From assembly GCF_035083965.1 (NCBI RefSeq), contig NC_089732.1, positions 1,718,883 through 1,782,882 on the forward strand: DNA of 64,000 nt, read 5' to 3'. Each line of letters begins with the position of its first letter. Positions within the stretch are counted from its first letter, which is position 1. The notes below the pieces were generated by a model. That model was given only the letters and a program-made list of their open reading frames with translations. It ran no database searches and was not told the DNA's origin. The stretch comes from Branchiostoma lanceolatum (taxonomy: Eukaryota > Chordata > Leptocardii > Amphioxiformes > Branchiostomatidae). Both the position numbers and the translations under genes were made by a program. This document shows, in pieces, positions 2,813-43,202 of this stretch.

Positions 2813-2883
2813 GTAGTCTTCAAGATTTTCTTTCTAACCTTCATCAACGTATTTTCTTTAACTGTTCTTGTTTTTCCTTACAG

Positions 2884-17700: not shown

Positions 17701-20665
17701 TGGCCTTGTATGTTCCCATCAAATCCTGGTCTCCCGCTATCAGGCATGGGTTTCTCAAAATAGTGGCAAGGTGATATCCTTCCTTCAGGTAAAATGTGGC
17801 ATCATTCTGTAGTTTTGAAACCATGTTTTCAGGGGTGCAGATGAGTTCACTTGTTGGTTCATTCAAAGTTCCCTGTCTGCCCAGTGGAGTCTTGCTTGCC
17901 TTTGGCATGGAACCATCAAATGCAAACCCACGAGGTGTAACAGAGTCATAGTACCAGTCATCAAGTGGATTCTCTGAGTAGAATTCGTTGAGAGATTTTA
18001 TTCCCAATGCTGGGAGAATAGTTTCTCCCAGGTTGACCACCTTGAGGTGTAGATAGTGGGTCAGGTTGCGGAAATATACCAGAAATTCTTCACTTTCTTC
18101 TTCTACCAAGATGGCAAACTCCAGGTCTGAGTATGGAGTTACCAGTCCTGTGGCCTGTGAACCCAAACCTATCAGGGCATACTTACAGGGAGGGGGACCC
18201 ATTAACCCAATACACTCTTCTACAAGCAGGCTGATGAACTCCTTCCTTTGTTGTGCAATGTTCTCGAACAACTGTCTGACAGCCTGAGCTCGTTTTGCCT
18301 CTATCTCTCTGACACATGGGTCGTCCTCATCATGTACGTAGGGATTCAGCTGCTGGTCAATGGTTTCCATCTCCAGCTTGATCTGGTCTCGCATCTCCTT
18401 CAGCTTCTTCTTGTGCTTTTCTGTGTTGTCTTGGCTCACATTGTGATGAATATTTAAGACACAAATAAGAAATGACATGTCTACTTCTCTAATAGTTTTT
18501 GCTATGTTACCATTGAGGGCTTTGTTCTTTGACCTGGCTATTGCTGCATTGTAGAGTGCTGCTGCTTTGACAAAGTCTCCCCCGTCTCCTGTCTGCTGAC
18601 CTCGCTTACTGTAGACATCCCCCACCTTGCACAGGGGCTCCACCTCTCTCTGGTACTGCTGGGCTGTGGGGTCTGGGAGAAAGAATTTGTTGTTTGGCAA
18701 ATAACCTTAAGTCTATCTTTTGGTACTGGATACAACTACTGTAGGTATCCTATCTAAAAGAAATATTGCAGACACTTTATCCACGCATATTGTTTGATAC
18801 ACAGTAATATCATTGTCAACATGATCCTGAATTGTGGTCTTGCAATAAGCAATCAGGCTTTCATTTACTCATTAGAATTATTCTAGGCAAATTACGGAAC
18901 TTAAAAGCACCATACGGTACTACATGGCTGTCTGTTATATAAACCAATTCTAAGCATATCATCTACTTCTTAGCATAATGTTCACCTCACTTGGTTTCTC
19001 TTACCTTTTACATGTACCGTCTTGAGTGCTGCTGCAAAGTGCTGCTCTGCTGAGTCCAGGTCTGCCCTTGCAAGGGAGGATTCACCTTCCTTAAGGCTGT
19101 CATTGTACTGCCTTTGAATGAAACGCAATGGTTTAGGGTATTGTAGGTAGACATGCATTGGCACACTTGAACATTATCATTCTAAAATAGTGAATATCAC
19201 ATTAGTGACACTGTTATCAAGCAAGCCAATGAAACCACATATTTCTACTTGAATTATCACAACAAAATTACACCAAGGCTGACTCATATTGCAGTTATTG
19301 TTCTATCTGCAGAAATCAGGTCACTTATGGATTTAGATTTTTCTCATTTCAAGGTTCTCATAAATGAAGTTCCTAGTAACGTTTCCCCACCTTGTTATGT
19401 CTAGATGTTGGTCCTGAATGATGTCAGTTTTTGTGGTGTTCCTTGACTGGGACTCCATGCATGGTCTTCTTTTTCTTTGTTTCTTTATTGTTGGTTTCTG
19501 CATAATTCAAGACCGATTGTCAACATCTGTATTTATCTAATTGTTCATGGTTGTGTGTGTGTGTGTGTGTGTTTATAGCTTGAGCATGTTTATGCTTGCT
19601 TTTGTGTGCATGTTCTTGCATAATGCTTGTAAGTGCATGCGTGTGCGTGCGTGCGGGTGTATGTGTGTGTGTACATGTATTACAGTGTATTTGTGTTCGT
19701 TTGTGTGTATGTGTTTGTGAGTGTGTATACAAGACTGTGTGTATATGACTTTTGGATCAATGTGCATTTCGTATGTGTGTGCAAGTGTGCATAATGTGCA
19801 CATGTGCGAGTGTGAGTGTACAGTGATGATATATCATATCCATGTCTAATTTGCATTTAGTGTGGTACCATGTGATGTTGGGCTTTAGAGTAGTTTAACA
19901 CATTATAAATTGCCTAAGCTGACTAGAATACATCACAATTGCTAAATAAAACTACTGGTAACCTTTTCCAACTCTTCCCTGATCCTCTCCATGTATCTGA
20001 TGCGATGTTCTAGAGTTGGTTTTGTCCCCGGATCCCCACATCTTGTCAGGGCTTTGTTGTACATCGCAGCTGCCTTGGAGAACTGGGATACATCAGAGGT
20101 TTTCTTGCCTTTCTCAAGATAGAGGTCCCCAAGTGACTTTAGAACTGCAAGCTCCAAGAACAAGTCACTTTTCCTTATAGCTGTCACTAATGTCTCTGTG
20201 TAAGTCTGTTCAACAGAGTTCCAGGGTTTACCGACTCTCTTGTCTAGTTTTGCACAAATCTCTGCCACCCTTAAGACATTACTGTCAGCAGTACCCCAGT
20301 AGTCTGGTGACAACCACCGGAAGTGTGGAGTGTACCCCTGCAGCAGTTGTCTGGAGAGTTTCTCCATGTAGCCGATACGATGTTCCAGTGTTTGTCCCAT
20401 CTCTGGATCTGTGCAGCGCAGTAGGGCAGCAGCATACAGGGCAGCAGCCTTGTCAAACTCTGCTGAGTCTTTACCCAGCTTGCCCTTTTGAAGATGCAGG
20501 TCTCCAAGACTTTTCAGGACTTCCACTTCCATAGAGTTCCTTGGAAATAATTGCTTCTCGCAGTGCTTGTCCATACCTGACTTCTTTGCCATGTTGACTG
20601 TTGCAGGATAACTCCAAGTTCTGTAGCATGTTAAAGGCCAGGCTGCTCATATTGATGTCAGTCAT
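14744..20665 (-). CDS. Nucleotidyltransferase-like TPR protein, copy B
   Basis: Exons 20665-19963, 19497-19391, 19111-19005 and 18672-14744 match copy A in order, phase and domain content. The protein has N-terminal KSLGDL/KAAALY modules, a GLGS...[11 protein letters not shown] nucleotidyltransferase-like core, then 16-17 TPRs of 42 residues, ending in [15 protein letters not shown]. Exon 1 carries an indel relative to copy A near 20535 (about two bases missing), so the start homologous to copy A (ATG at 20665) runs out of frame. An ATG at 20532 ([12 protein letters not shown]) restores the conserved frame and gives 1,570 residues; one at 20592 gives 1,590. Either the protein starts downstream or the gene is newly damaged. 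The 3.9 kb TPR exon has no stop, which favours function. Confidence 0.75.
19550..19825. repeat. TG-rich microsatellite
   Basis: A run of GTGTGTGTGT and interrupted TGTG/TGCG units in the intron between exons 1 and 2 of copy B. ORFs of histidine/threonine-rich composition on the minus strand are artefacts of it. Confidence 0.85.
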
Positions 20666-23428: not shown

Positions 23429-23436
23429 TATATAAG
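23429..23436 (+). promoter_or_regulatory. TATA box of the chimeric receptor gene
   Basis: TATATAAG lies about 130 bases upstream of the initiator ATG at 23562, flanked by G-rich sequence (CCTGGT before, AGCG after). A transcription start around 23460 would give a 5' UTR of about 100 bases. The sequence supports a classical TATA promoter; the exact start is inference. Confidence 0.55.
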
Positions 23437-23561: not shown

Positions 23562-26500
23562 ATGAAGGGACTTCTCGCTGTCGCTCTGTTCTTCTGCGGC
23601 CTGCCTTTTGTCAACGGTAGGAAATTATTATACATGCAATAATGTTTCTATAGATACTTTGATACTGATATAAATACATGTCATGTATATGTTATGGAGT
23701 TGGGTCATTTGTTGTAACGGCAGCCAGCATATGTTTGATCCTGAGAACACTGTGTCAGAGGTCTTGGGTTCGAAGCCTGTCATGTCATGCCCTTGGGAAC
23801 GCCACTTTACTACACGACTTACATCTCTCCACCCAGGTGTAAAAATGGGTACCTGACTTTTGTTGGGGAGGTAAAAGGAGAGGGTTTGGATCATGACCCA
23901 CTGCCCCTACGGCCTCAAAAAGCCTATGGGACTACATGTACCTACCTTTTATACATAATTAGGGTGTTATTAAGATTGCAATCTGAGTCGCCATTTCTAT
24001 CAGGATCTCTGCCAGTATATTATCGGCAGTTCTGGTTTCATGCAAGACCTTCAAGTTTGTGTAAATATACCTTTAGCACTAATAGCTTATTACTCCATTG
24101 AATATGTGAGTCAACAATAGAGCATGTTGTAGCGTGCTGAAGACACCTGTTACAACAATAGCACTGCAACAAACGTGCCGTCCGGGGTTTAAGAGAATTT
24201 AGTAAGGAAATTTGAAATATTTTTGACTGATGCAACACCAACATCACAATGCGCAAGGATTATCAATAGGTGGTAATTTCTTCTGTTCGCTCCAGTCATT
24301 GTTATACTTATTATTGAGTGGGCCGACTAATACTCTCTCTTCGCAGTCAAGGGCTGAATTGTGAGGAGCTTTTAATTTATACAACTAGCGGGGATATTTC
24401 TATCAGGATCTCTGCCAGTACAATATCGGCAGTTCTGGTTTCATGCAAGACCTTCAAGTTTGTGTTGATATACCTTTAGCACTTAGCTTATTACTCCATG
24501 AATAGATGTGAGTCAACAATAGAGCATGTTGTCGCATGCTGGAGACACCTGTTACAACAATAGCACTGCAACAAACGTGCTGTCCGGGGCTTAAGATAAA
24601 GTAATGAAATTTGAAACATCAACATCACTAAAATGCCCAAGGCGTATCAACAGGATAATTTCTGCTGTTAGCACCAGTCATTGTAATAATCATTATTGAG
24701 TGGGCCGACTATTCTCTCTTTGCAGTCAAGGGCTGAATTGCGAGGAGCTTACAATTGGCGGGGATAGATCGCATTAGGGTCTGCAGCGGCTACCTCTCGG
24801 CCCTAAGCTGACCTTGATAAGACAATTGCCCCATGTTCGGCCTTAGGACTGTACACAAAACATTTTACAAGCCTGATCCACCAGAATTCTTGGGTTGCTG
24901 AGAAGGGAGAAAAAAAGAAATTGGTCAAATTTGGGTGAACCTGCTACCACAACCGGCTAACTTCTAATAATGATAGTAAATCATTCAACCCTTTTTTCTT
25001 AAATTTTGCTATTTTTCAGCAACAAATTGAGAAGTCTGGTGGAGGCTACCATGTTGCCATGGTAATGCTACTGCGATGTAAATGTAAAATGCGTCATGGA
25101 TTATTCAAACATTAAGGACCCCGTTCCACCACACGTGTTTCAATCGACCTCTTTGAAACTCAGATGTGAATCAGCCATGACCATGAACCTAAAGCTTGTG
25201 TAAACATACCTTCCTTTTCTCACTGTTTGTTGATCTTGTGGTCGTGCAATGTGCCAATGAAATGTGGACAAACAAAACAATGACTGGCTTCTTTTCTAAC
25301 TAAACAGGTGAAGCCATCTCTCCGTGTAGTTTTGTTTGCATAGTTGTACTGGGCGTATCCACTTGTGTTTACCCTCTCAGTCATGCACAATGCCTTTTAA
25401 ATAATCTGTTTAAGCCTGTTTGGTATTATGTCATTTATTTGAATCAACAAACAGTAGGCCCAGTGACTTAAGCTTGCTTCTTTCCGAACTGTACAAATGA
25501 AGCCCTCTCTCTATGTAGTTCAATTGTGTATTGGGCGTATCCATTGGTGTTTATCCCTCTCAATCATGCACAGTCTGCCTTTGAAATAATCTGATGAAAC
25601 CTCTTTGGGTCCATTTTTTCACATTTATCACGTTGAAAGCTTTTGAAGCTATTTCTGTTTTCATCTAAAATGTATCTAATAGATTAAAGGCACTACATTG
25701 TTCGTCAACGACATTGCAAGGCATTTTTATGCTTGACTTGACAATGTCGTTGACGAATAATGTAGTGCCTTTAATCTATTAGATACGTTTTACAGATGTA
25801 GATAAATGTGAATAAATGACTGTGAATTTGATACGGAAATGATGCAATAATTACATTCTACCCAAAAATATTTTATCATATATGTTTAATACCTTAAAAT
25901 TCATTTTGTATTTCCTCGTATCTGTTAGTATATTAGGATTTATGATACAAGTTTTTCTAACGTTAACTTTGTTTAGTTTTGAGTTATGTACAATTTATGA
26001 TATGATTCCTATTGTTAAGTTTCAAAGGGAGGCCCATGAAAAACCACCTAAGCTTCTGGCCTCCCCCGCATATTTTCTTTGCCCTGTATTTCTTTGTTTT
26101 GAATTACTTGTGTATGCACTTGTATCATAAATCCTAATAGATTAATAGATACGAGGAAATACAAAATGAATTTTAAGGTATTAAACATATATGATAAAAG
26201 ATTTTTGGGTAGAATGTAATTGCATCATTTCCGTGTCAAGTTCACATATTCTAAACATATCTTATAGATTAAAGTACCTAAGAACATTCTTTGTCGACGA
26301 CATCGTCAAATCGAGCATAAAAACGCCACGATCACATTCACTCTGTTGAAATGCAATGTTTATTGTTTCACATATGCAAATTTTTCAATAAACAATAAAA
26401 ACGATCTCTTTTTGACTGCAGGCCTGGGGTGTCCCGATGGCTACTCGTACCTGGCACATGCCCGCCGGTGTTACCGCGCCTACGACCGTGAGAACACCTA

Positions 26501-29500
26501 CGACCAGGCTTTGGCGGCCTGCCAAGAAAACGGCAGCACTCTTGCCATGCCTCGCGACGGAACCACCAACGACTTTCTCGTCGCTTTGAAGAATGCCGCA
26601 AACGCGGAGAAGCATTTCTACATCGGGCTGGACCGCCAGGACGGATCGTGGAATTACGTAGATGGAGGAGAGCTGGGTTACACCGACTGGGGTGACGGGG
26701 AGCCGAGTAATCTAGGTGGATATTGGAGATTTCTTTTTACACAACAAGTAATGTTTCACCTGCTAACGTTTCCGTGTCTATCAGACAGGTCCTTCTTCAG
26801 AGCTTCTGACAGGAGTACTTCAATCTAGAAGTAGCTGAAGTAGGTGGCACTTTTGCGGCAGGAACACAGTCCAAAACATGGCTAAGTTTACATGATTCAA
26901 CAGTGTATATCCCCCCTCATCCCGGTTCATCACTGGTGTTGCTGTATGACATTTGTGATTGTGATCTCGCTGCAAAAGTTCACCACGTAAGCAGGCGAGA
27001 CATTACAATAACTGGGTTTTTAAAATATATTTTTTTATTGTCAAAAGCTACTGTACTAACAATATATTACACAGACTCTCGAGGCAGCGCAGCTGATATT
27101 AGAGAATCAACATTTATAGACAGACCATACGTGTAGGCAATGGTTGTGTAAAAAGAAATTTCCAATATCCTATGTTCTACCGACCTGATGAAATTATTTT
27201 CGGTAATTTAGGTGGAAACGAGAAGTGCGCTGAGTACTTCCCTGGGAACTTTGACACAGTCTCAAAGAGAAACAAATGGAACGACCAGTACTGCTGGATT
27301 CCCGGCGGGTTCATCTGCGAAACTGGTAGGTTACAGATATTGATGTTAGAGGGTGCGTTAAGATACTATTTATCCATGTCAAAATTTCCTCTTAAATAGA
27401 TGATCATAACCTTGAATTTACGTCTACAATGCTGTAATATTATAGCAAGAAAAAACATTGTTTTGGCCATACAACATCATCCTTAAGTTTATAATAAAAA
27501 TATGTGTCTTTAAAAGAATGTCAATTTCTTTGTCACTTGGGGCAACCAGGAAAAGGCTTGATAAAAAAGCATAGATGCTTTGTAGGATATATTTCAACCG
27601 GAAAACATGCTTATTCGGCCTGTGGCGAAGATTACCAGGCTACCATCACTGGCTGTTTCCAGAACAAGGCTGATAAGGCTGTCACAGTGGTAACCAACAG
27701 ATGTTTTCACCACAATATAGTCAAACCCTCCACCAGAGGCTCTAAATATTTCTTTGTCACCAACAGGCCCACGCCCGTACACCGATCGAAATGGAACCCA
27801 GTACAACGTGTTTGCGGAGAGCATGACGTACAACGCTGCTGCTCTGACCTGCGCGGCAGACGGCGGCCATCTCGCCGATGTGACGTCACAGGAGCTGCAG
27901 GACTTCCTGGTTGCCATGATTGAGGAGGTCGGTGCCGGTGGAGATTACTGGATCGGGCTTCGGAACGTGCCAGTGAGTGTTACATCAGATAAAAATGTAC
28001 TTTTTGTCTTCACTTGAAAGTTCATCTGTGTCTTAGCTTGGTTAAAAAGTCATTCTGAATCAAAGCAGATCTCCAAGCATATCTATTAGTGGCAAGGCAG
28101 TATCAAAAGGGCCAACCAGTATCAAAAGCCCCCGGAGGCTTTCGATACTCAGGCTGGCTCTTTTGATTGGGAGACTGAAATTTAAAAGGGAAACCTAATA
28201 TAAGCCTACTCCTCACTGTAGATTGTTTTTACTATGATCTAATGTCAATATAACACTGTTTTCTGTTTTGATGTTAACGTAGTTGAGAAATGATTACCTT
28301 CCAACATTCAGGTGTTGCAAAATTGTGTATCTGCTTTACATTGTACAGGGAGGGTGGACATGGTCCGATGGAACAGCGGTCAGCGGTTGTGGTTTCACCA
28401 ACTGGGCACCGGGAGAGCCGGACAGTGCGGATGACAAGTGCGGTCAACTCTGGCGGGCTGGAGGATTCAAATGGGACGACGCCAGCTGTGATGAACAGCA
28501 TTCCTTCATCTGTCAAATTGGTACTTTGTCATGATTTGATTTTTGAAACTTCTTTGTAGCAGCAGTACTACTTCAGTCTGTAAATGCAGAAATGTTTGCG
28601 GTAGTTTTATCTTCGTGGTTTTTGCAGCAACCGTTTCACCGCAAACTTAAAACCACCGCAAAAACTTTCTTCCAAATGGTGTTCTCCAAATCCCACCATG
28701 ATTGTTGAAAACACCTCAGCACAGTGTTGTGATTTTTGTGTATTACTAAATGGAGTTTAAGGAAAGTGTTTATTCTATGAATTAGTCAATGTATGATGAC
28801 ATTGTTGCTGATTGTACTTTACCAGGTCCCGGTGAAGAAGACGCCTGTGGACCTCCCCAAGGTAATACATCACATAACACATTGTCATGATAGGCACTAG
28901 GTAGCCTGTGTTTATGCAATCTCTCGCTGACTGGGGTTAATGACCGCCGGGCCGACCGCTAGGAGTGTGATTTAGTCAGGTTAAGTTACAAGTTAAGGAT
29001 ATGACTCGTGGCTAAATTATTTCTGTTTCAAAAATACATGTACGTTCATCAAGTAGCCGTGATGTTCGACCGACCACAAAGTTTAACACACATTATGTTC
29101 GTACAACTTCCTTCCTTCAATATAACGCAAGGTTGACGATTTTTTTTTTTACCAGTTTGGCTGACACAGGATCCGTCATGGGTTGTGGACTCCTCTGGCA
29201 CATCGTTGGTGACATATGATGCCGCAAAAGCCTTGGATGGGGACACTGGGACCTACTGGAACCCTCAAGGTACCGACATCATCATCATCATCAAAATGGT
29301 TTTATTATTTAATAAAAATCATTGCAGCCAAAGGTTGAATTGTGCCTTTTGTACAGTGCGCTTGCTTTTCACATAAGACATTATACAAATCATTTAAAAA
29401 TAGTAACTGTTACAGTGGTGTTAAGAAATACATCGGCATTAAATTAGCTTGATTTTTGCTAGCTTATATTAAAAATAATTTCATCCAGTTCATGCCGTGG

Positions 29501-32500
29501 TATTCAGGAGACAACAACTGGTACATCGTCCTGGACCTCAAAGCGCCCCAAGCTCTGACCGGAATCGCAATCAACAACTACGGAGACACCGACCATGACA
29601 GTGCAGCCTTCACGTTGCAAAAGTCACAGGTTGGAATTAACCTTCTTTTGAAGACTACGTCAAGACATCATGCATTGTCTTAACCTCATTAACATATCTA
29701 TTAAGAGTTTTGGTATAAAACCTGGTGTTCTCAGTCCTATCCTTAGTCACTGACGAAAGACAGAGGAATGCTGTCTGAAACGTCTGTTTCAAACTTTTAT
29801 CCAGTTGCTTGTTTTAAACTATTCTTGACGTATCGCAGGTAGGGAGTCCGTACAACTGGGAGGACGTTGTGTCCGTCGACAACGTCCAAGGAGGGACGGA
29901 CCGGCGCCAGGAGTTTGGTGGGTTCCAGGGAACAGCGCGGTACTGGAGGTTCCTGGTCACTCGGACCCACTCGGGCACGCAGCCATGGCTCACGGAACTG
30001 AACTTCAAGGGAATATCTGCAAGTAAGTATAGTAGATGAATTACAATGATATTTGGTATGTCGGTAGGTGTCGCTTTTGGGCCCCCTGGTATGTGACCTT
30101 GGTACTGCAGCAGAACTTCCGTTTTTTCCATCTTTTGACCTGGATGTGCTATGGTCTTGATTTTTTTTGTGGCAGAATATAGCTTGTGATGTAAGGAAGC
30201 AGTGGTGTAGGTTTGGGCCCCCTAGCAGCTTACTATGGAACTACAGGGGTGTTGTTGTCACAATCAAAACTTAAGGTGCTTTCCTGTAGGTTGGGTCAGT
30301 ATTGAAAAATGAATTTTAAATCATGAAATTTACGAACTGTTTTTCCCAACACAGGGTGTCCCTGTGGTGTAGTGGTCTGCGCTTCTGTTACTCACCACAT
30401 CATGGTGTGGGAGGATTTTAACTTTTAACGTTTCCCAACACAGCAATCCGCTGCCCCCTGGGGTACTTCCGGTGTGGACTGGGACAGATTGCCTGCGTCC
30501 TGGCGTGGAAACGGTGTGACGGGCGGACGGACTGTTCAGACGGGAGCGACGAGGAGGGTTGTGGTAAGTCTAGAAACAGTTGTCTCACTTTTAACTCACT
30601 GCACTTTAAGCAGCAGCTGTACGTAAATTAAAACTTGTCTTCTTCCCACTGTTGGTGACTCCAAGACACTGTACTTTTTTTCGGTAATGCAAGGAGACTA
30701 ATAAGTATATTGCTCTTACAAACTTAAATTTGTATAATGATTTATTTCAAGTAGATGTCAGATTTTATGGTGTCACGTTGCATGCATGTACAGTGCCAGT
30801 GTCGCAATGCATGTTAAAGGCAACCTAAGCAATATTAGGGCGCTGAAAGTCACATATTCAAAATCAATTTTTTTCTGATTTCTATCCATAGTAAGTTTAG
30901 ATAACACTATCCCATCGCATATCGACCATCATGGAGCAAAAATGTGATGTCGTTGGGTGGTGGGAACTCATCGAAAATCTGAGCACTTGGAGGCCAGCCA
31001 TCATTTCAAATCTTCCGACCATGCACGATTCTGACCAATAAGTCCCGAACGCTTCCGAAGAAATAATCATGTGGTCATGGCTCAATTTCTTGGGCATTGT
31101 GACGTCACGCGGCCGGAAGTTACCGAAAATTGTCGACAGAAAACGGTTACGGCTGGATTTGGGGTTGATTTTTTGGGGGACCCAATAAATGAAATACTCC
31201 TTTTGTGCTTTGCGTCTGTGCTATCTTTAAACGCCTAAAGTATGAAATAATGATGCAGATGTGCTAATATAGGAAAGTAAATGTAAATTTCAACCTCACC
31301 AAACAGAATTGTTTTCCCCAGAATATTTCAAGTTTTACCCCCTGAAATCGCTTACATGATGTAGGGCACCTTTAAAAGCACGTGAAACGACTCTACGACG
31401 AATGCAACCATCCATCTTCTTACAATTTTCCAGAGTGCCTGCCGATTCCTGGGGATTTCAACCTCGGTGACAGACTTGCGATGCTGCCAAATCCGCTGGG
31501 CCAGACGACATTCGGGGAGGTGCAGAATTCCTCCGTGGCAGAACTGTTCAACAGTTTGTACACCAACCCAGAGACAGTCCACCCTGAGTTCAGAGAGTTT
31601 GCCTCTACGGTCATCTTCCCGCGGTGCAATGTCTCCGGTGAGAGCAACACCGACTGTCCTTCGTCCGGAAATGCACCTGACGCAACTTCATGCATGTGAG
31701 TAAAAACATGGTGTTTGGTGTGGCATTTAATGACAACTCTTTGGTGGAAACGATTTTCCCATGGGAATTTACGTAATTCCACTGTTTTTTTAAAGATACA
31801 CTCAGTTTTAATGACGTTGAGGCCCAAGACTGCACGCTAGAATTGTATTTAAGCTGAAAAAGGCTGACAAGCGTGCAAGCTAAAAAAATATGAAAACATG
31901 TTGTAAAGACTGTTCTCCCATAATTGGCTGGTACTAAATCTACTACAGAAATGTAGTTATTAACTGCATAACATTTCTAGGAGGAAACAACTGTTGCCGT
32001 GCCGTTCGTGGTGTGAGGAAGTCCTCAACGCGGCTGATGACGGGATAAAGAACCTGCTGCCTGGATGTGACCTGTTCCCTCCGCCACAACACGGCTGCTG
32101 GAACCCTGAACCGGAGACACAGGACTACGAAGGTAATGAGGAAGTCTTGACTTTCCACTGGAAATAGCATTTGAGAATATAATTCAAATGATTGTTAAAC
32201 TTTCTTCCAACACTAAGGTTTAAATTTTCAACGACTGTTGCCTTCTTCAGAATCATTAATAACTCTCGTGAGTTAATGTTCGTTGATTGGTCATTATTAA
32301 TTCTGAAGAAGGCGACAGTGGCTGTCGAAAATTTGATACCTTTAAGTTAGTGTTGGAAGAATGTTTGGCATTGTATTACAATTACTTGCAACACAGATGA
32401 GCTTCCATGAGCAATAAGATTTTTATTCTTGTTACTTGAAGTGTACCATATCTACTTGCATCTTTCACAAACCAGACCAAGTATAAGTTACATTATTGTG

Positions 32501-35500
32501 TTTCAATATAAAACATTATGTGGTTGGGGACAAGTAATTTCTCTGCTGGTTGTGACAGCTTCTTCCAGTGCATCTTATAGCCTGGTGCACATGATGGAGG
32601 TTTTCAGCATATCAATCACATTCAGAAAATGCATTCAGGGAAACACATGTTGTACATGTTATGCAATCAGCTGCTAATAAACGGACATTTCTCTTCCCCA
32701 GTTTGCTACCATGGCAGTGGCATGAACTACCGTGGCACAGGAAGCACAACCATATCCGGGGCAGACTGTCTGCAGTGGTCCGTTGCACAAGGTGGTTTCT
32801 ACACAGCCGAGTACCCCTTGGCTAATCTGGTCAACAACTTCTGCCGCAACCCGACCGGGCTCGAGCGACCGTTTTGCGTGACAGAAGATGGCAGCCAGGA
32901 GGAATGTGACCTCATTCCATGCAGTAAGTTGTCAAAGATAAAAGATGCCCTCTGATCTTAAGTAGGTATCTTTTTCATTAAAAACGAAATGGACATCATG
33001 TCCCTGGTGCTGAATGACATTCACACTGACACTGCTGTCCCTGGTGCTGAATGACATTCACACTGACACTGCTGTCCCTGGTGCTGAATGACATTCACAC
33101 TGACACTGCTGTCCCTGGTGCTGAATGACATTCACACTGACACTGCTGTCCCTGGTGCTGAATGACATTCACACTGACACTGCTGTCCCTGGTGCTGAAT
33201 GACATTCACACTGACACTGCTGTCCCTGGTGCTGAATGACATACACAAGGAAGATATCATCTTTGATCCCACATAGAGCTCATTCATTTCAATTTTTGAT
33301 TGTAATGTCTGCCATCAATTTTCTCAAAGATACAGAATCTGATTCATTTATTCAAACTTATCTTTTCTTTGCATGATCTTCATGGCAACAACACTTAACT
33401 GTGAGAAGTACAATGTATAGGTGGCAAGCTGGCCTTGTGTTTAGGGTTGTTGACTTTGAGTCTAAAGGTTCTGGGTTCGAATCTCTGGCAGGTACATATA
33501 TTGTGCCCTTGGGAAAGGCACTTAACAACTGATTCCTTACTCGATTGAGGTGAAATTGAGTACCTAGCTTTGGTTAGGTACGTCCTCTCAGATGGGACGT
33601 TAAGCTAGTGGCCCCACGTTTGAGGCGAGCCACATCTTGAGCATGCTCAAGATCACACTTATGGAAAAGAGCAAGGGTCCATCCCAACAGTCTTATGTCC
33701 AAACACCACACACCAGCTGGAAATGTACCATTATTACATATCATTGAATTCATGATACTGATGATAATGATATTATCATGATGATGATGATAACTTGTCT
33801 TTGATAACTTGTTACGCCTAGATACCAACCTTGGCTGCTTGGACATGATACTGATGGTAATGATATTATTATTATGATGATGATAACTTGTCTTTGATAA
33901 CTTGTTCCGCCCAGATACCGACCATGGCTGCTTGGACATGGGTATTAATGATAATGATATTATCATGATGATGATAACTTGTCTTTGATAACTTGTTACA
34001 CCTAGATACCAACCTTGGCTGCTTGAACGTGGGTACTGATGATAATGATATTATCATGATAATGATGATAACTTGCTTTGACAACTTGTTACGCCCAGAT
34101 ACAGACCTTGGCTGCTTGGACATGGGTGTTAATGATAATGATATTATCATGATGATGATTGTCTTTGATAACTTGTTACACCTACGTAGATACCGACCTT
34201 GGCTGCTTGGACATGGGTCCTCCAAACTACGGCAAGAGAAGCCCCGGCAAGAAGTTCTACTACGTGGGAGAAAGGATCGCATTCACCTGCAACGAAGGGT
34301 ACAAGCTTCAATCCGGGTATCCCAGGGAGGTGAGGTGCATCGAAGGAGGCACCTGGCAACATGAAAAGCCTACTTGTACAGGTGATGGTTATCATTCTTT
34401 ACAGGTTTGCGTAGTAAAACCTTTGTTGGATCCGTTGGCATGTGTCGAGGTTGACATCTTGAATCGTGACGTTACAGGGTCGGCATACCGTTTTATTGGG
34501 AGAGGTGTTTTTTGGGTCGCTAGTGTTCTCTCCACTTTTAACAAATCGGGGAAACAAATGGACACACAACTATCACACATAAAAAGAAAAAAAATTCAGT
34601 ACCAATTCATATTCATAAAGATGACCTGTAATCGCTAAACTAACAGCAAGCCTGAAGTAAATGTAGCACAGATACTTAATTCTAGTTATCCTTGCTGCTG
34701 GACCCTGAGTTGGCCTATAGTTTTTTTTACATTTCAGGCACTAGAAAGGCAAGGTAGTCCCATAGCCTTTTTGAGGCCGTAGCTTCTGTGGGTTGTTATC
34801 CACTGTGTCTTGGGCAGTGGTATATACTAAGGAATGCGGATCCCATCCCTCTACTTCCATCGCCTTTTACCCAAAGCCCTGGGGAACTCGGTCCAACTGT
34901 TCAAACTTAACCAGCAATTTATCTATTTTCATGATGTTTTATTCAGATATGATGTTTCTTTGTTTTCATGATGTTTTTTCAGACGTGATATGGACACAAA
35001 ATAAGATGACAATCAGTCAGAAATATATATAGCAGCTGCTTCTATTGATATTGATTAATTGTCTTCTTGACAATGGTCAATGACATGCACTTGTCCCTTC
35101 TTTAGTCAATCTTGGAGGAAGGCTGGAGAAGGAGGTTCTCGAGGCGTACAGCGCTGATCTGGCACCTGAGACTGAGGAAAACCTCCTCATCGGCTTCACG
35201 GGTTCTGTGGAACAGATCGTTGACTTGGTAAGTCAATTTATAGACATTAGAAACTCCTCCAATGATTATAAAATACCATTGTCATCCCATACTACTACAC
35301 CATATTGTATAAGATAGATTGATTAGCCTAATAGAATGTTATCTTATAATGTACCAGTGGATGCCATACTTTGTACCTTGTTGTGCAATAAAGTTATTAT
35401 TATCATACCCGTGCCGCGATGACTTTCGATACGGATGTTTGGACCGGTCCATACTTTATGGTACGGCCAGGGCTTCCCTAGTTTGAATCGACGATTTGGA

Positions 35501-38500
35501 CTCGCTTCGAGTGCGCCGGTTGTGCCGCTGTCGAAAATTGGAAAACCAGATTCGGACGTTTTGATCGATGTTGTTACACTTTTTTTGTTCAAGGACACAA
35601 AACTCTCTCAACTTCTGTCCCATTTTGCATTGGAATGTGCGTTTCTTCTGGTGGGTGTGACATGAAAAAATACAACACGGTGATAAGATACAATGGGCGA
35701 TGCTGAACACACCGTGTTGTATTCTATATACCGTTATTTTTTGAGACTTAGTTTCACTGTAGGTGGGAAAAGGAGGACGTAAACTTGCAGAGTTATGTTT
35801 TTGTGATAGAGAAGTTCCCGCGAAAGCTAAACCATCAGCAAAAGTTTGAAGATTTATAATTTCATCTGCTTACCCATTTGAAATCCTTTTTTGGTTTCAA
35901 GAATTAGATAACTCACTTATTAAAAGTACACGACTTGATCAATTCCTAAATTTTTATTTCAGGATGAAAAGAAGGAGCAGCTAGTTGCGTCTGTGGTGAT
36001 CAATCTCGTAAGTTTTCACTGAGTTATGACAACTTTAGGACAACATATGTTTGGCAAATAGGCTGTTCACATCGGTTACTAGAATATTCTTCAATCAGTG
36101 ACTTAAGAAAGGTGACAAAATATGTACCTCCAATTTTTCGACGTCCACTGTACGTCTTGATCACGGAGTGACCTTGTCTCGCGAGAGCACAAGACTAGGT
36201 CGAGACTTGTGTAGATCTTCCTGCCTCCCCCTCCTCCTTGCGGAGCAGATGTAAGTAAGACTTGGGCAGCCCCCAGCCTTCGTTAAGTCACTGATTGAAG
36301 AATATTCTTAGTAACTGTAATCACACCTGACTGATGAATCTCTTCAACAATGTCTTCACATCATTTTGTCTTCTAGAGGTTTTTTGGGCTGTTCCATTGT
36401 TTGGCTGCCACAAGTAGATTTTATGGATGACGTCCTATTTTTGCCCAATTTTGAAAAAAGAAAGAAACAAGAAATTTTGATCCTTTCTGGTGATGCCTTG
36501 ATCAGTCTGGTTGCCTTGAGAATGAATTTGTAGCGATACTTGAATAATTAGCTACCACACTAGTATCACTCTGTGCACTTCTTAAATTCAGGAATAAAAG
36601 ATTTTTTGTGATACGTTTTGGTCGCTTTGATTTTTGTTACAACGTAAATGATCTCTATTTCGAAAAGGCAGGCATCCGTTTTTTCACTTTCTTGCATATC
36701 AGATTTGGATTCAGCAGGTTATGTCATACGTATACGTAGTATATACTTGCTGTCGTCTTATTTTCATTTGCGGCGCATCGAAATGTCCTTTTTCCCCAGA
36801 CTTGGCAGGACAGTCGGCTGAAGTGGGATCCAAAGTACTACGATGGTATCGAGGCATTCAGCATCCTCGGCAGTAGTGTTTGGACCCCAGCAATGACCCT
36901 CAAGAGAAAGTACGTCGTCTTTTCTTTACCCAGTCTAATTAAAGGCAACCGAAGCAACATTACGGCCCAAAAATCGGATTTTGAAAGTCTATTTAATATT
37001 TAGTCATTTCTATAGTACACGATTGGTTCAAACGACACTATCACAATGTATAGCGACGTCCATGATGCAAAAATACGACATCGTTGTGATGTGAGAACTA
37101 ACTGAGAAACTGGGGTTTTTGTAGGCTCGTGAAACTAAGGGGATAATCATAAGGCACGTTTTTGCACGGTTTTAAAATGCTCAAAGTATGAAGTTATTAC
37201 GGAAGTATGCTAAACAGTATTATTAAATGTCACAAGCAAAAAGATTTAACGATTTTTTTATTTCCATTTTTGGCCCTAATATTGCTTAGGTTGTCTTTAA
37301 GGTTGGTTACTAGCTATACAAACAAACAAAAGGGGACAATAGAGTATGATGACAGCCCACTTTTTTAATAAACACTGAAGGGCGGTGATGATAATGAAAT
37401 ATTACTCTATGAGGAGACAACGTTTTTCATGACAAATTTGTCAGAAAGCAGTCGACCTTGCATCAGTCTAAGACAGCTTTGTTGTTAACTTCACAGTGCC
37501 GATACCGAGTACGATGGCCTGGAAAAAGGAGTACCGGTCCGGGTCAACAGCAATGGTACCGTAACCTGGAGGGTAGAGACCCTGACCACCACCGTGTGCA
37601 ATGCAGACCCCTTCTACTTCCCTGCAGACGCCATGGATTGCGAAATTTGCTTCTCTGCAGCCATAGCAACCGACCAAACCATTCGTAAGGCTTTGCAAAC
37701 ATTCATGAAAGTATATTGATATCAGTAAGTTTGTTTTACAAGCTTTAGGGCAGTTCAGTGATGATTTCATTTCTGAACTCAAAAAAAGGTTCTCCAGGTT
37801 TTACAGGTGCTCAGGTAGAGTAAGTTGAGATAAAAAAATTGCACGTACAAACCATTTTCGATGTTTCTATTGGCCAGTATCCTCCAATGCTGTATGTCTT
37901 TCATAAATAATTCAATCTGTTCCAAACATAACATGTTAGATGTCTGGTATATACTGTTCTTAGTGCCATTAGAGGATATTCTCGCCTCTGAACATCTGCC
38001 GATGATAATTTTTTGTTTTGATATGTTGAACACAGAATGCGGAGAAGACAACTCTACAGAAGACGAGACCAACAGTCCCTGCGACGTCTGGTCTACCACA
38101 CGACAGGAGGGCGAGTGGTATCAGGTAGCATAATTATGTAATACGATCACAACTTGAATGATACGTGTTCCTGTGAAGACCTGCTTTGAACAATTGTCTT
38201 CTTCTTTGTGAAGTGGTTTGAGTCACCTTTACAATAAAATCTACACCTATGTTCACTTCTTGTATTCTAATCAGATATCTTTTCATTAACCGCCACTGTT
38301 TAAGCCTGATAAAAACGTGAGTGATACACGCTTATGTGTATTGGAAAGGGTCGCAGTCCTTAGGACGGGACGTTAAGCCATGGTCTGTTGTTCATTGTGC
38401 TTGTCGAAAAGAGCTAGGGGAATTTCCCCGGTACAATGAATCTGTAAATACTGTACATAGCGTCTCTGTCTTCTCTGTCACGACCAGTGGAAGAGTAGCA

Positions 38501-41457
38501 TATCTGTTCATTGACTTTATTTGAGCTAAACTGTTTCAAAATCACTTTCCTTTTATCATATCAGAAGGACAGGATCTTCGCAAGAGACGACAAGGAGGCG
38601 TGCTTCGCTGTCCATCTGGAGAGGATCCCCCTGTTCCACATCGCCACGACTGTCGGGCCCTGCGTCATCCTGGTGGTGCTGATGATCATCACCTTCATCA
38701 TGCCCATAGACAGGGGAGACCGGATCTCGTTCGGAGTGACCATTCAGCTCTCCATGGTCGTGTCTCTCGTGTTTGTCACGGAGGTACTTCCTGTCAAGGG
38801 GGCGCTGCCGTTTTTCGGTAAGTAAAGATAGATAAAGTCGTGTTGTTTCTATGAACTGTTTTTCAAATATCAGTGAATAGTCCCCTAAGGTTAGTAAGTC
38901 AATGGTTAACAACAGAAAGCACAACCAATGTTTACCACCTGCCGGCATTTTGGCGGACCGTCTGTGACCTTCTTCAGGGCAATACTTATGGCAGAACCAG
39001 TCAGCAAAACCAGTCAGTATTGCCCTGAGGAAGGTGACACACGGTCCGCCAAAATGCCGGCAGGTGAACAACATTAGCTGTACATGTGTGAACAGAAAGC
39101 TTTATTGACCACTGTTTTTCAAATAGATTGAGAACAAGCAGTTTTTGATTCTTTTGATTCAACTGCCTTGGCATTCTAGTAACTGTTTACCATGGATGAT
39201 TTTACAGCCACACTGATTGTTGTGTGCATGGCACTGATGGGACTCTTCCTCTTCTTCACCATGGGCATCATCAAGCTCCACGACAAGGAGGGGAGCCTGC
39301 CTCCGTCTGCGAAGACTTTCTTTCTCCGCTATATGGCAAAGTATGTGCTGTTCGTAACTGTTACAATAACTTGAATTAGACTTCATAGATACGTTACATA
39401 ATAATACTCTTAAGTTGGAGCATACACAAAGTTTATTATATGATTAGACCAAATGGCAATTGAGATACATTTTGAAGATTATTCACATTGAGAACACAGT
39501 ATGTGTTGCAGCACAGTTAGATACTATTAGATAACACTATTAGGTAGATGTGAACTGCATGTAAAATCTAACCATGGTCAGATAACTGACCAATAGAGCC
39601 AATGGACATTACCTGGGAAGTCCAAATGTGATCTCGTGAGAGTTATAGATCTTGCGAGTTTACCTTCGAAAGTGATTGTTCATTGTTGATCCTGAAGAAG
39701 GCGACAGTGGTCGTTGAAAATTTGATCCGTGCATTCCTTTGTGTTGGAAGAAATTTTAGTATTGTACTGAAAACTCCTTTATCATTGTCATTGTTAAGGA
39801 TGCTGCTGTTGGGAGACCTCACAAAGAAGAAGCGTCCGACCAACAACACCGCCATCGAGCTGGCCAGCTTCCGATTCAACGAGAACACAAAGCCGTTCTC
39901 TGGAGAAGACCCCGCTGATGCGTACGAGACCGCCGGCCCTTACTCCTTCGAGCCTCCTACAGCCGAAACCAACTTCGCCTTCGATGCGGAAGACGCGATG
40001 ACGTTCTCCGGAGAAAACGCCGCTGATGCCTCCGGGACCACCGCGTACGAGTCCTTCGAGACTCCTACACGTCCGGTCGAGGCCATTGCCAAGAAGATGA
40101 TCGTCTTCGAAGGCAGTCCAGGTGCGGGATCAAACCCGGGGCTTCTAGTTCCAGAGGCAAGATTGCTAATCACTGCGATCTTGCCTCTGGAGTCTGGAAC
40201 TAGAAGCCCCGGGTTCGATCCCAACATGCATGCTACCGGATAGGGTCGCAGTCATTAGGACAGGACGTTAAGCTGTGGTCCACTGTTCATTGTGCTTGTC
40301 GAAAAAAGCTAGGGGAATTTCCCCGGTACAATAAACCTGTAAATACTGTACATAACGTCTGTCTTCCTGTCTTGACCAGTGGAAGATTAGCTCATTGAGC
40401 TCATTTGAGCTCAGCTGGTTTGAGATCACTTTCCTTTCCTTTCCAGGGCCTTCCGATGTCTCCAAGACAACTGCCCAGCCAACTGCAGCCCTGGAGGCCA
40501 GCCTGCTGATGATGGTGTCCAGTGTGAAGGAGCTGACAACTGTCATGAAGACCGAAGTGGGGGAGCTCGCCAAGGCAGTAAACAACCAGGTACAGGCTGC
40601 TGTATTGATTGATTGGTTTGTTGGTTGGTTGGTTGGTTGGTTAGTTGATAGATTGACTGACTGACTGACTGACTGACTGACTGACTGACTGACTGACTGA
40701 CTGACTGACTGACTGACTGACTGACTGACTCATTGATTGGTTCATTGATTGGTTCATTGATTGGTTCATTCATTTCCTTTTTCTATGAAACATTACACAT
40801 TGATACAGGCTTAAGATATACACAAAATCAAATACAAACATATATATAGCTAAACTAACTGCACCGTAAACCATAGCTGTTGTGAACAATCAAATTTCTG
40901 TAGTGCTAGTAGCTGCAATGTCAACAAACGTTTGATAATTCAGTTATTGGAGGAGAGTACTGTAAATGCATCTAAGTTCGCGTGGTTTTTATTTCGCGCT
41001 AAGGTGAAAATGGAGTGTTCGCGGTGGTTTGCAGATTGCGGCAGCACTATAGTCACATACTGCTACATTATTGTACAAAAATGTTGGCGGTGGTTTTAAG
41101 TTCGCGGTGAAATGGTCGCCGCAAAAACCACGAACATAAAACCACCGCGAACATTTCTGCGTTTACGGTAATCTGTTTAAGAAAGTTTAACATATCCTCC
41201 TTTGCCTTGATTCAACAAACAACCAGACACAGGAGCTGAAGGTCGAGCTCTCCGATGTCCTGAAGACCGAGATGGGGAAACTCTCCAAGGCAGTTAACAA
41301 CCAGACAGAGGAGCTGGCCAAGCTGATGAAGAAGGAGGAGGATCCGGAGGTGTCCGATTACACCCTTCTGGCCAAGGTGCTGGACAGGCTGTGTCTTGTC
41401 CTGTACGTCATCAGTATCATTGTGGCCGTGCCCACCACCATGTATCTGGGCAAGTAA
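23562..41457 (+). CDS. Chimeric lectin/F5-8C/LDLa/Frizzled/kringle/sushi Cys-loop ion channel
   Basis: Twenty-four exons join without a frame break (3,882 bases, 1,293 residues): 23562-23616, 26422-26715, 27212-27325, 27767-27972, 28349-28520, 28826-28861, 29156-29269, 29508-29629, 29839-30022, 30444-30563, 31434-31695, 31981-32132, 32702-32923, 34190-34381, 35106-35227, 35963-36007, 36800-36909, 37497-37684, 38036-38124, 38565-38817, 39208-39340, 39799-40121, 40447-40589, 41227-41457. Order: signal peptide 1-19, C-type lectin 20-154 and 155-280, F5/8C 293-432, LDLa 433-472 ([11 protein letters not shown]), Frizzled CRD 473-610, kringle 611-684, sushi 685-748, channel ligand-binding domain 749-951 (Cys-loop with 13 residues between cysteines, FPxD inside), M1 956-978, M2 987-1008, M3 1019-1040, long loop, M4 1269-1288. 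It is probably a pentameric plasma-membrane cation channel with a very large ectodomain. The ligand is unknown. Confidence 0.88.
23692..23944 (+). mobile_element. tRNA-related SINE in intron 1
   Basis: Contains a B-box-like GGTTCGAAGCC and the tail GCCCTTGGGAA...CACTTTA...CACCCAGGTGTAAAAATGGGTACCTG, which also occurs at about 50897-51031 (reverse). A SINE is the best reading. Confidence 0.55.
23993..24766. repeat. Tandem duplication of about 400 bp in intron 1
   Basis: The block starting TTTCTATCAGGATCTCTGCCAG at 23993 recurs at 24397 and runs to the shared end GTCAAGGGCTGAATTG. The copies are about 90% alike by eye, with small deletions. No coding potential is seen. Confidence 0.8.
25275..25615. 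repeat. Second tandem duplication in intron 1
   Basis: Two diverged copies offset by about 190 bases: GTGAAGCCATCTCTCCGTGTAG near 25310 and ATGAAGCCCTCTCTCTATGTAG near 25500, each followed by GGGCGTATCCA and TCATGCACA. Confidence 0.65.
25618..26325. mobile_element. Nested inverted-repeat (MITE-like) element
   Basis: A hairpin with 44-base arms (25673-25716 and 25742-25786, one mismatch; core AAAGGCACTACATT) is followed by a long palindrome. Its arms of about 115 bases lie at 25833-25951 and 26118-26240 around a loop of about 165 bases. A diverged copy of the outer motif (AGATTAAAG...GTCGACGACATCGTCAA) closes the structure near 26265-26320. This looks like a non-autonomous element, possibly with one inserted in another. 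It sits directly upstream of lectin exon 2. Confidence 0.7.
28577..28668. mobile_element. Short foldback element in intron 5
   Basis: Starts TGTAAATGCAGAAATGTTTGCGG and folds onto CCGCAAACTTAAAACCACCGCAAA. The same family occurs at 40958-41171 and 51375-51794. Confidence 0.55.
30362..30422 (+). mobile_element. tRNA-like SINE head fragment in intron 9
   Basis: TGTGGTGTAGTGGTCTGCGC matches a pol III A-box (TRGYNNARNNGG). No B-box or body follows, and exon 10 begins 22 bases later. Confidence 0.35.
30814..31377. mobile_element. MITE-like element in intron 10
   Basis: The left end TTAAAGGCAACCTAAGCAATATTAGGG and right end GTAGGGCACCTTTAA are imperfect inverted repeats. The left end and internal sequence match the element at 36939-37300. 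It lies directly before the Frizzled-domain exon. Confidence 0.65.
32194..32364. mobile_element. Hairpin MITE in intron 12
   Basis: Arms of about 70 bases at 32194-32261 and 32292-32364 pair (CTTCCAACACTAAGGT... with ...AAGTTAGTGTTGGAAG; CCTTCTTCAGAAT with ATTCTGAAGAAGG). A single-arm relative lies at about 39685-39765. Confidence 0.75.
32995..33245. repeat. 37 bp minisatellite in intron 13
   Basis: Nearly identical tandem units of 37 bases, about six and a half copies, containing TGTCCCTGGTGCTGAATGAC and ATTCACACTGACACTGC. The near-perfect identity implies recent expansion or homogenisation. Confidence 0.92.
33421..33690 (+). mobile_element. tRNA-related SINE in intron 13
   Basis: The head contains GGTTCTGGGTTCGAATCTC (B-box), followed by GTGCCCTTGGGAAAGGCAC, shared with other copies, and TCAGATGGGACGTTAAGCTA. 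Confidence 0.6.
33770..34189 (+). repeat. Ladder of duplicated splice acceptors before the sushi exon
   Basis: A 91-93 base unit is repeated four times immediately upstream of the sushi exon. Each unit carries ATGATATTATCATGATGATGAT, then CTTTGATAACTTGTTACNCC(T/C)AG and the first 26-27 bases of the sushi exon (ATACCNACCTTGGCTGCTTGG). Decoy exon starts are at 33822, 33915, 34006 and 34099; the real exon starts at 34190. Three decoys are followed by a GT that would define an in-frame 27-base microexon. Confidence 0.8.
35340..35402 (+). mobile_element. LINE 3'-tail fragment in intron 15
   Basis: TGCCATACTTTGTACCTTGTTGTGCAATAAAGTTATTATTAT is a typical tail ending in a short microsatellite. A related tail is at about 43975-44020. 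Confidence 0.5.
36076..36314. mobile_element. MITE with 31 bp terminal inverted repeats in intron 16
   Basis: TTACTAGAATATTCTTCAATC and GTGACTTAA at the left (36076-36106) pair with TTAAGTCACTGATTGAAGAA at the right (36283-36314). The interior has no coding potential. Confidence 0.8.
36939..37300. mobile_element. Complete MITE in intron 17
   Basis: Imperfect inverted ends TTAAAGGCAACCGAAGCAAC and GCTTAGGTTGTCTTTAA enclose about 300 bases related to the element at 30814-31377. Confidence 0.75.
38340..38550 (+). mobile_element. tRNA-derived SINE body ending at the M1-M2 exon acceptor
   Basis: The body runs GGAAAGGGTCGCAGTCCTTAG, ACGTTAAGCCATGGTC, AGCTAGGGGAATTTCCCCGG, CGACCAGTGGAAGA, to ATCACTTTCCTTTT. 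Other copies are at 40140-40445, 49920-50229 (reverse) and 53888-54113. Its pyrimidine-rich tail is followed after about 13 bases by the CAG acceptor of the exon at 38565. Confidence 0.8.
38935..39066. mobile_element. Hairpin MITE between M2 and M3 exons
   Basis: Arms of about 53 bases: CACCTGCCGGCATTTTGGCG at 38935 pairs with CGCCAAAATGCCGGCAGGTG ending at 39066, continuing through CTTCAGGGCAATACT/AGTATTGCCCTGAGG. The loop is about 25 bases. Confidence 0.85.
40126..40445 (+). mobile_element. SINE with inverted head forming almost all of intron 22
   Basis: An inverted repeat (40126-40164 against 40175-40222) built from the SINE head (AACCCGGGGCTTCTAGTTCC; GGTTCGATCCC B-box) leads into the SINE body and its tail TCACTTTCCTTTCCTTTCC. 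That tail is immediately the polypyrimidine tract of the acceptor for the exon at 40447. The intron is 40122-40446. Confidence 0.8.
40605..40775. repeat. Simple repeats GGTT and GACT in intron 23
   Basis: GGTTGGTTGGTT, then about 19 copies of the tetranucleotide GACT at about 40650-40730, then ATTGATTGGTTC repeats. Confidence 0.95.
40958..41171. mobile_element. MITE in intron 23
   Basis: The ends GTACTGTAAATGCA and TGCGTTTACGGTA are inverted. The interior is built of GTTCGCGGTGGTTT and AAACCACCGCGAAC repeats. Same family as 28577 and 51375. Confidence 0.75.
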
Positions 41458-42335
41458 AGATCTAGTTTGCATTCGGATCTGGTTTGGATTCGGATCTGGC
41501 TTGGATTCGGATCTGATTTGGATTCGGATCTGGTTTGGATTCTGATCTGGTTTGGATTCTGATCTGGTTAGACACAGTAAACCCACCCAGACAAACTGCA
41601 ACAGCTTTCAAGTTAATAAGTAGTTATCCTATAGGTGGAACGTACATAACATTCATCTGAGTTCTAGAAGATTGCTCATAGTCTAAAAATCTGGATCTAG
41701 CTTGACGTGTGTAAAGTAAATAACAGTTGTGTTTTTTTTCTTTTCAGTTTATTTACTTATTCATTCATTTAACAGGGACAACATATTGCCTATCAAAGAT
41801 GTTTCAATGTGTACTGATGATGATGATGGGTCAAAGACCCTTAATATGATAAGATAAGGCAAGATATAACAGTCGTGTTTTTGCATGTTTAATTCATTTT
41901 ATTTACTTAATTTATTGATTCATCTAAGCAGGAAAGGAATAGCGACTAGGATGTTTTCAATTGGTCCTGGACTGATGTAACAATTATGTTTTTTGTTCAG
42001 TTTCAGATCACTTACTTATTTATCAGTTCATTTATTAATTCATTAATTTAAGGTGTTTTCAATGTGTACTAGGTGGAAGACGCTAAACATAGATACAAGG
42101 AGATGAGATGCTTGCATCAACCAATGATTTCATCTGGTAATAGAAATACCACTTTGATGTACCTGAGCAGGCTCACGTTTTAGCATTTACATGTATCTAG
42201 TTTAAGAGTCGTAGGGCCTTGTAATGTGTATTAAATTGGATTGAATAATCATTTGTTTTTGTGTAAGAGTCTTATACACAATGTGTACATTTTGAAGGGT
42301 CAAATCATCAATAAAAGGAAAACCAAGGAATTATA
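41458..42335 (+). terminator. 3' UTR and polyadenylation signal of the chimeric channel gene
   Basis: After the TAA at 41455-41457 come five copies of an 18-base repeat (GGATTCGGATCTGGTTT, 41470-41570) and several blocks of the pattern TTTATTTACTT...ATTCATT (41750-42055). An AATAAA lies at 42310-42315. The extent of the UTR is inference. Confidence 0.5.
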
Positions 42336-43202
42336 TTTTTTGTGTCCTTCACAAAATCATTGCCTCATTTAGTATTCTTTTAACCAACATCTACACATGA
42401 TAAAAGTTATAAATAGACAAACTTTGAACCAAAGAGCTATTTGGATATTTACTGCATCAGAGAGCACTTGTCCTGAGTTGTCCACTTTGTTTCCTACTCT
42501 CTAAACGATTAAAAAGGAATATGCACTCAATGTTTCTCCATTCCTTGGGTTTTGCAACTGTCTAATAGCACCGTCTAGCGGAACAAATCTGTGATGCAGT
42601 TACAGTACAATCCCCTATGGGAGTTTGCGTGTAATCGTTGAAAGCGCCTTCTGGCGGATGTAGAAATAATCGTCACGTCACAGATGGTTATGTTGAGGTC
42701 AGTTTTCCGAACATGGTAAAGACTATCACTTCGGGGACAATCTAATGTATGATGAGGTCTGTGGTATACTATACGTATGTTTTATCACTCGAGTACTTCC
42801 ACGCATGGTTTGTATGATTATTCTATCGACTAAAGGCGCTCATTTATATCTGAAGAGTATGGATGGCCCGGTGTCTTTCAAGCTTTTATTAAAGCGAGCC
42901 GTTAAGCGAAGCTGCAAGGCCCTGTAAGCTATCGGCAGAGAGAGGGAGAGAGAGGGAGAGAAGAAGAGCATTCCTGAGCTGAAGCACCTCCTCTATTCAC
43001 TGGGCGGAGCTTTATTAACACCGTGTCACGGTCAGGTGCAACCTGTTTTGTGGTGGAGGATCATCTCCGTTACCTGCAGTACCGTAAATCTTCACTGGTC
43101 GGCGCTTTATGAGTACCGTCTAGCCACTAGCACTGTCAGGTGCAGCCTGTATACTAGTATTTTGGTGCCTGGAAACGACTTGAAGGTACAGAGTGGTGGT
43201 AA
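42336..43202. other. Intergenic, nothing recognised
   Basis: No exon is supported. Two related stretches (GTCACGGTCAGGTGCAACCTG near 43025 and CACTGTCAGGTGCAGCCTG near 43131) suggest a small local duplication. Confidence 0.4.

Follow-up and report, generated by a model that had tools for sequence, protein, structure and literature searches.

A plus-strand locus at 23562..41457 of the window (the whole 64-kb stretch of amphioxus DNA that was analysed) rather likely holds one gene for one large, nicotinic-type subunit of a pentameric channel, the ectodomain of which would tether or cluster the channel. As read from the sequence, the predicted chain would carry a signal peptide, seven extracellular modules (one of them only probable), a ligand-binding domain with its Cys-loop, the membrane helices M1-M4 and a cytoplasmic loop. 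That a single transcript would join the ectodomain and channel exons is a prediction in which we have good confidence.

Gene model, splice sites and surrounding sequence

The exons were read by hand, and the chain was checked by script for frame and splice sites. Results showed that 24 exons give a single open frame of 1293 codons followed by TAA, with no internal stop and with GT-AG borders at all 23 introns. This is the unbroken 24-exon frame that an earlier note on this DNA had claimed, and the exon starts placed there at 32702, 34190 and 35106 proved exact in the chain. Exon 1 (23562..23616) holds the ATG and a signal peptide (hydropathy 3.03) and ends in a phase-1 donor scoring 7.5 (6.4 leave-one-out). 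A pattern scan located a putative TATA-box-like element, TATATAAG, at 23429..23436 (+), 133 nt upstream of the ATG. It is one of seven TATATAA[AG] matches on the plus strand of the window and the sole one between 22.9 and 43 kb, while the looser TATA[AT]A[AG] pattern gave 37 plus-strand matches in the window, 7 of them in that interval. Behind the stop, an AATAAA at 42310..42315 (+) is the only one in 41458-43000 and is preceded by an ATTAAA at 42230.

Acceptors were scored with a matrix built from the model's own sites. The exon 8 acceptor at 29508 is a fitted choice that restores the frame, with a weak leave-one-out score of 1.2; the candidate at 29489 was rejected, as the frame is lost there. 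Other weak acceptors are those of exon 24 (-0.1), exon 22 (1.3), exon 21 (2.0), exon 12 (2.4) and exon 14 (2.5), and exon 15 scored 4.9 on the same matrix. The surroundings of exon 14 are repetitive. Intron 13 contains a 37-bp minisatellite (window 32999-33247, 6.7 copies, 99% matches), and a 93-bp tandem repeat of five copies (84% matches, window 33756-34218) ends inside exon 14. Every 93-bp copy contains the exon 14 acceptor region and ~29 bases from the start of the coding sequence of this exon, which places decoy acceptors upstream; the copy chosen for the model has four added bases (CCTACGTAGATACC vs CCTAGATACC).

Searches for tRNAs and against Rfam gave no match, and no relative was found in viral contigs scanned with the whole protein by six peptide patterns, which detect close relatives only. 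Elsewhere in the window, the minus strand at 1931-20646 carries two long, similar reading frames of 1204 and 1320 codons, rich in TPR repeats, alongside a shorter TPR-rich frame at 1931-2809 (-). The frame at 14744-18706 (-) also matches a DUF294 nucleotidyltransferase (E 8e-5, 23 bits, cut-off 21). Together these TPR-rich frames look like a local gene-family expansion. A short frame at 55833-56090 (-) has weak similarity to mitochondrial NAD kinase 2 (PDB 7n29, E 0.0027) and no Pfam match at E 0.1; it is perhaps one exon of an NADK2 gene.

Extracellular modules and their intron phases

In a Pfam search of the whole protein at E 0.001, all eight listed rows were above their curated cut-offs. 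Two C-type lectin domains come first, encoded by exons 2-3 (26422-26715, 27212-27325) and exons 4-5 (27767-27972, 28349-28520; aa 172-279); each is a 1-1 phase unit, and Lectin_C matches in two stretches (1.7e-40). Exon 6 (28826..28861) adds a 1-1 phase linker of 12 aa with one Cys. An F5/8 type C (discoidin) domain follows in exons 7-9 (29156-29269, 29508-29629, 29839-30022; aa 311-418), where F5_F8_type_C (4.7e-12) and F5_F8_type_C_2 (1.7e-10) overlap and represent one domain. Exon 10 (30444..30563) encodes an LDL receptor class A domain (Ldl_recept_a, 4.2e-9, aa 435-472) with six Cys and a DCSDGSDE motif, exon 13 (32702..32923) a kringle (3.2e-15, aa 612-684) with six Cys, and exon 14 (34190..34381) a sushi/CCP domain (4.1e-9, aa 690-747) with four Cys. 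All of these lie on the plus strand, as do exons 11-12 (31434-31695, 31981-32132), which probably encode a Frizzled-like cysteine-rich domain. From lectin 1 to sushi, the modules contain 6, 5 (+1 in the linker), 0, 6, 8, 6 and 4 Cys, and there are 42 Cys in total between residues 20 and 955. Nine of ten open reading frames picked in the introns in a search for hidden modules had no match at E 0.1; the tenth was the sushi exon itself, with an additional sub-cut-off zinc-finger match (E 0.046).

The Frizzled-type assignment is the part of the earlier count of seven modules that we retain as probable only, the other six being firm by Pfam matches above cut-off. No Frizzled row was obtained for the whole protein at E 0.001, exons 11-12 searched alone matched Pfam Fz at E 4.2e-4 with 21.3 bits vs a cut-off of 32.1, and phmmer of this part against PDB gave no relative at E 1; the domain is therefore named Fz-like. 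Canonical Frizzled CRDs hold 10 Cys, as compared with 8 here. An Fz domain followed by a kringle is also the order in ROR receptors. A ROR origin of this part was dropped because the kringle is nearer to those of plasminogen, HGF and apo(a), the closest PDB kringles, and the Fz part has no PDB match. Single-kringle PDB matches were apo(a) (3.3e-15), plasminogen K4 (1.3e-13) and ROR2 (1.1e-11), and the plasminogen value of 9.1e-53 is a sum over five kringles.

For the lectin pair, the best PDB matches were DEC-205 (lymphocyte antigen 75) and the PLA2 receptor, followed by mannose receptors, with scores that are summed over several lectin domains. Domain 1 retains EP and WND, and domain 2 EP and WDD, at the positions that we take, from the familiar motif, to be the calcium/sugar site of C-type lectins. 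A link to polycystins was considered and rejected: the NCBIfam PCC match (4.4e-10) is restricted to residues 162-283, mainly lectin domain 2, and reaches 36.6 bits, far under the cut-off of 1861.4.

All nine introns at module boundaries are in phase 1, as compared with 5 of the other 14 (hypergeometric P 0.0024, for boundaries that we chose ourselves and that include both sides of the linker exon). Because every module boundary falls at a phase-1 intron, we read the pattern as a mark of exon shuffling downstream of the exon for the signal peptide. In the simplest history, a nicotinic-type subunit gene would have taken up phase 1-1 modules in the phase-1 intron that follows this exon. As the modules are phase-symmetrical, splicing could include or omit such a cassette and leave the frame intact. 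The pattern also agrees with published features of lancelet genomes, in which, according to an excerpt of PMC4284660, exon shuffling is very high and biased to 1-1 phase exons. Such extreme shuffling makes a fusion plausible in this lineage and its surprise somewhat lower. Lectin_C, F5/8C and kringle are listed among the hub domains of deuterostome-specific combinations in the part of PMC2394772 that we used.

A 14-nt direct repeat (93%) brackets intron 2 (window 26707-27216) and includes both splice sites, GTAATCTAG/GTGGA and GTAATTTAG/GTGGA. The intron carries a MITE-like element that begins two bases past the exon and has inverted ends of 28 nt (26718-26745, 27143-27170). By its sequence it looks like a recently gained intron, and the intron of lectin domain 2 is at another place than intron 2 in lectin domain 1.

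The channel part

Most of the Cys-loop ligand-binding domain is encoded by exons 15-19 (35106-35227, 35963-36007, 36800-36909, 37497-37684, 38036-38124; all +), as seen from Neur_chan_LBD (5.1e-31, aa 754-944) and from matches to AChR chains in PDB. Exon 20 (38565..38817) adds the end of this domain with M1 and M2 (Pfam, PDB alignment and hydropathy), exon 21 (39208..39340) M3, and exons 22-24 (39799-40121, 40447-40589, 41227-41457) the M3-M4 loop, M4 and the stop. Neur_chan_memb covers aa 963-1283 (8.4e-18), and both Pfam domains are above cut-off on one chain. The Cys-loop is intact (C875...FYFPAD...C889), with the required 13-residue spacing of the Cys and the loop proline. The complete Cys-loop receptor that had been described behind the modules is thus present in each of its parts, from the ligand-binding domain through the Cys-loop and M1-M4 to the M3-M4 loop. 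Signal peptide and membrane spans were called from hydropathy alone. Its seven windows (three overlap at M2) correspond to the signal peptide and M1-M4 only; there is therefore no extra span between ectodomain and channel.

At E 0.001, 201 distinct PDB sequences matched the channel. Among the best 60 of the 201, Torpedo AChR beta ranked first (3.6e-35) and 5-HT3A appeared from 4e-29. Going by match rank, the channel is nicotinic-type, nearer to AChR than to other Cys-loop classes. NCBIfam LIC matched at E 2.2e-44, but with 151.9 bits vs a cut-off of 280.2. Early in the ligand-binding domain, exons 16 and 17 measure 45 and 110 nt, the sizes of exons 3 and 4 in vertebrate nicotinic genes. Introns 1-3 are common to all vertebrate nAChR genes (PMC6354393, in excerpt).

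Cation-selective Cys-loop channels are characterised by acidic residues at -1' and 20', a basic 0' and Leu at 9' of M2. All of these were found in the alignment to Torpedo beta, where GEK is replaced by GDR, the 9' Leu is retained and 20' is acidic, and the known M2 rules thus predict a cation-selective pore. The agonist-site columns of loops A, B and D hold K, A and V in alignments with PDB AChR chains. These columns, presumably those of Tyr93, Trp149 and Trp55, were placed by the customary numbering; the alignments show beta subunits, and for alpha subunits the generally known residues were taken. No CC pair of the loop-C type occurs in the whole protein. Accordingly, neither the aromatic agonist box nor the vicinal Cys of alpha-type nicotinic subunits was found, and the protein is a possible non-alpha subunit of a heteromer. 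We read it as a putative orphan cation-channel subunit. Four of the six Cys in the ligand-binding domain are extra (892, 905, 919 and 946) and might pair in two additional disulfides. At its end, next to M4, the M3-M4 loop carries a duplicated helix-like stretch, at the position of the MA helix that is described for cation-type receptors in an excerpt of PMC10744633.

One gene or two, and the role of the ectodomain

The proposed fusion of modules and channel held up in frame, phase and splice sites, and two features of the junction point the same way. Exon 15 opens with the first residues of the mature ligand-binding domain and offers no in-frame start: read backwards from it, the frame stays open as far as 35084 and contains no ATG before the next stop codon is reached. 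The channel part has its first Met at residue 836 and must therefore receive its signal peptide from an exon further upstream. Moreover, neither AATAAA nor ATTAAA occurs between the halves (34382-35105). Phase agreement at exons 14/15 is weak evidence, since it is expected by chance in ~1/3 of cases, and in more where phase 1 is common. The phase pattern would fit a separate mosaic gene equally well: a phase-1 join would arise without fusion from mosaic modules of 1-1 phase next to a nicotinic gene, in which the signal-peptide exon is followed by a phase-1 intron. The locus could then comprise two neighbours. The first would encode a secreted mosaic lectin, from exons 1-14 and an end that the model does not include, and the second an ordinary subunit of nicotinic type, the promoter and signal exon of which would lie between exons 13 and 15. 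Candidates for that signal exon do exist. By a filter of our own, 32 of 792 ATG-to-phase-1-donor candidates on the plus strand pass as signal exons, and in 32924-35105 six of 29 pass, five of them being the same peptide; yet all six fall within the tandem repeats of 37 and 93 bp. At 35026, 80 nt ahead of exon 15, the looser TATA pattern matches (TATATAG), but no in-frame ATG for that exon comes after it. Read-through of exon 14, whose acceptor is among the weak ones, would end at a stop at 34638, upstream of a weak AGTAAA at 34656; AATAAA and ATTAAA are absent from the gap to exon 15, as noted. GC3 of the halves (0.66 vs 0.72) does not discriminate between the two readings. Gene predictions are known to merge adjacent genes in error (PMC3927609, in excerpt). 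With these points combined, we disfavour two genes and regard that arrangement as unlikely.

A single locus might also yield two products, exon 1 being spliced either to the cassette or straight to exon 15, with an ordinary-looking subunit as the main product and the long form minor or tissue-specific. Exon 1 joins exon 15 in frame and reads as an ordinary subunit, and every module is phase-symmetrical, but the skipping splice would span 11.5 kb; we consider this decidedly improbable. A pseudogene or an assembly artefact uniting unrelated exons is scarcely credible: the arrangement is known from a single genomic record, but against an artefact stand 24 intact exons in one frame, canonical splice sites and a 64-kb window with zero N bases. 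As for how the long chain would work, the ectodomain might be a ligand sensor, in which the lectin and discoidin modules would bind a glycan or lipid and relay this to the ligand-binding domain, opening the pore. The missing agonist-site aromatics (by customary numbering) and the EP/WND and EP/WDD residues at the lectin calcium/sugar sites (by the familiar motif) would suit such a sensor. Against it, no coupling element is visible, with few residues between the sushi domain (to 747) and the ligand-binding domain (from 754), and we judge it quite unlikely.

Under the one-subunit reading, which we prefer, the protein would join a homo- or heteropentamer and form a cation-type pore. It would not be gated by acetylcholine at its own faces, because the agonist-site aromatics are lost. 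Lectin, discoidin, LDLa and sushi domains are binding modules in known proteins, and the ~730-residue arm may bind glycans, lipid or matrix and partner proteins. Once bound, the arm would place or cluster the channel at a cell contact or surface, or set its sensitivity there. The earlier idea that the modules gate or localise the channel through glycan, lipid or protein binding is a reasonable one, and we favour a putative role in localisation and clustering over gating. If one subunit is assumed, tethering or clustering has a somewhat better than even chance, direct gating by an ectodomain ligand is an unlikely alternative to it, and what is left falls to a decoy or structural role. A broader proposal would see here a Cys-loop cation channel that has abandoned its transmitter site and acquired a shuffled pattern-recognition or adhesion ectodomain, so that microbial or matrix glycans, lipids or partners directly open or cluster it, with exchangeable phase-symmetrical module sets on the same pore. 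We hold this to be doubtful.

Nicotinic AChR subunits share with the amphioxus protein the ligand-binding domain, the Cys-loop, M1-M4, a GDR/GEK-type pore start and the 45- and 110-nt exons early in the ligand-binding domain. Unlike them, the amphioxus protein has ~730 aa of modules before that domain and is without the aromatics of loops A, B and D and the Cys pair of loop C. The polycystin-1 family likewise combines C-type lectin and LDLa modules, in the ectodomain, with a membrane protein related to channels, but its membrane domain is unrelated and includes no Cys-loop receptor. In the LEV-9/LEV-10 and agrin-LRP4-MuSK systems, acetylcholine receptors are clustered from the extracellular side by sushi, LDLa and Frizzled-type modules; these are on separate proteins there, whereas in amphioxus they would be on the channel itself. 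Among pentameric channels, bacterial DeCLIC likewise has a large additional N-terminal extracellular domain, which appears to accelerate gating (PMC12664993, in excerpt). That domain consists of two jelly-roll lobes, in contrast to the seven shuffled animal modules described here. Orphan or acetylcholine-insensitive nicotinic-like receptors exist in invertebrates, and the octopus and squid chemotactile receptors and Alpo4 are likewise nicotinic-like and orphan or unresponsive to acetylcholine. The excerpt of PMC10338036 from which this is taken mentions no added ectodomain modules for them and reports an aromatic cage in Alpo4 that the amphioxus protein does not keep.

In animal Cys-loop subunits, to our knowledge, the signal peptide is followed immediately by the ligand-binding domain. 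The openly licensed (CC0/BY/BY-SA) PMC literature gave, in titles and abstract starts among the matches listed, no Cys-loop subunit that bears an ectodomain of this kind, and the earlier statement that none is described is uncontradicted within that scope. One paper, PMC4529745, contains all three domain names, but its excerpt places them in a tabulation of domains of the secretome. According to an excerpt of PMC4795631, links of pLGIC architecture with other domains had been seen only at genome level; terminal sequence was removed there ahead of analysis, so an inventory of this kind would miss a case like the amphioxus gene. A predicted protein of the same layout may already sit in a lancelet gene database without comment. 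If mRNA confirms the join, the channel layout appears to be new relative to the literature searched, among the matches listed.

If the prediction is true, exon shuffling is capable of redirecting a fast ion channel towards surface recognition. The kinds of modules that cluster acetylcholine receptors from separate proteins would then be united on one chain. The protein would also provide a natural test, in animals, of an N-terminal accessory domain modulating the gating of a pLGIC, for which the sole partly characterised case named in the excerpt of PMC12664993 is bacterial.
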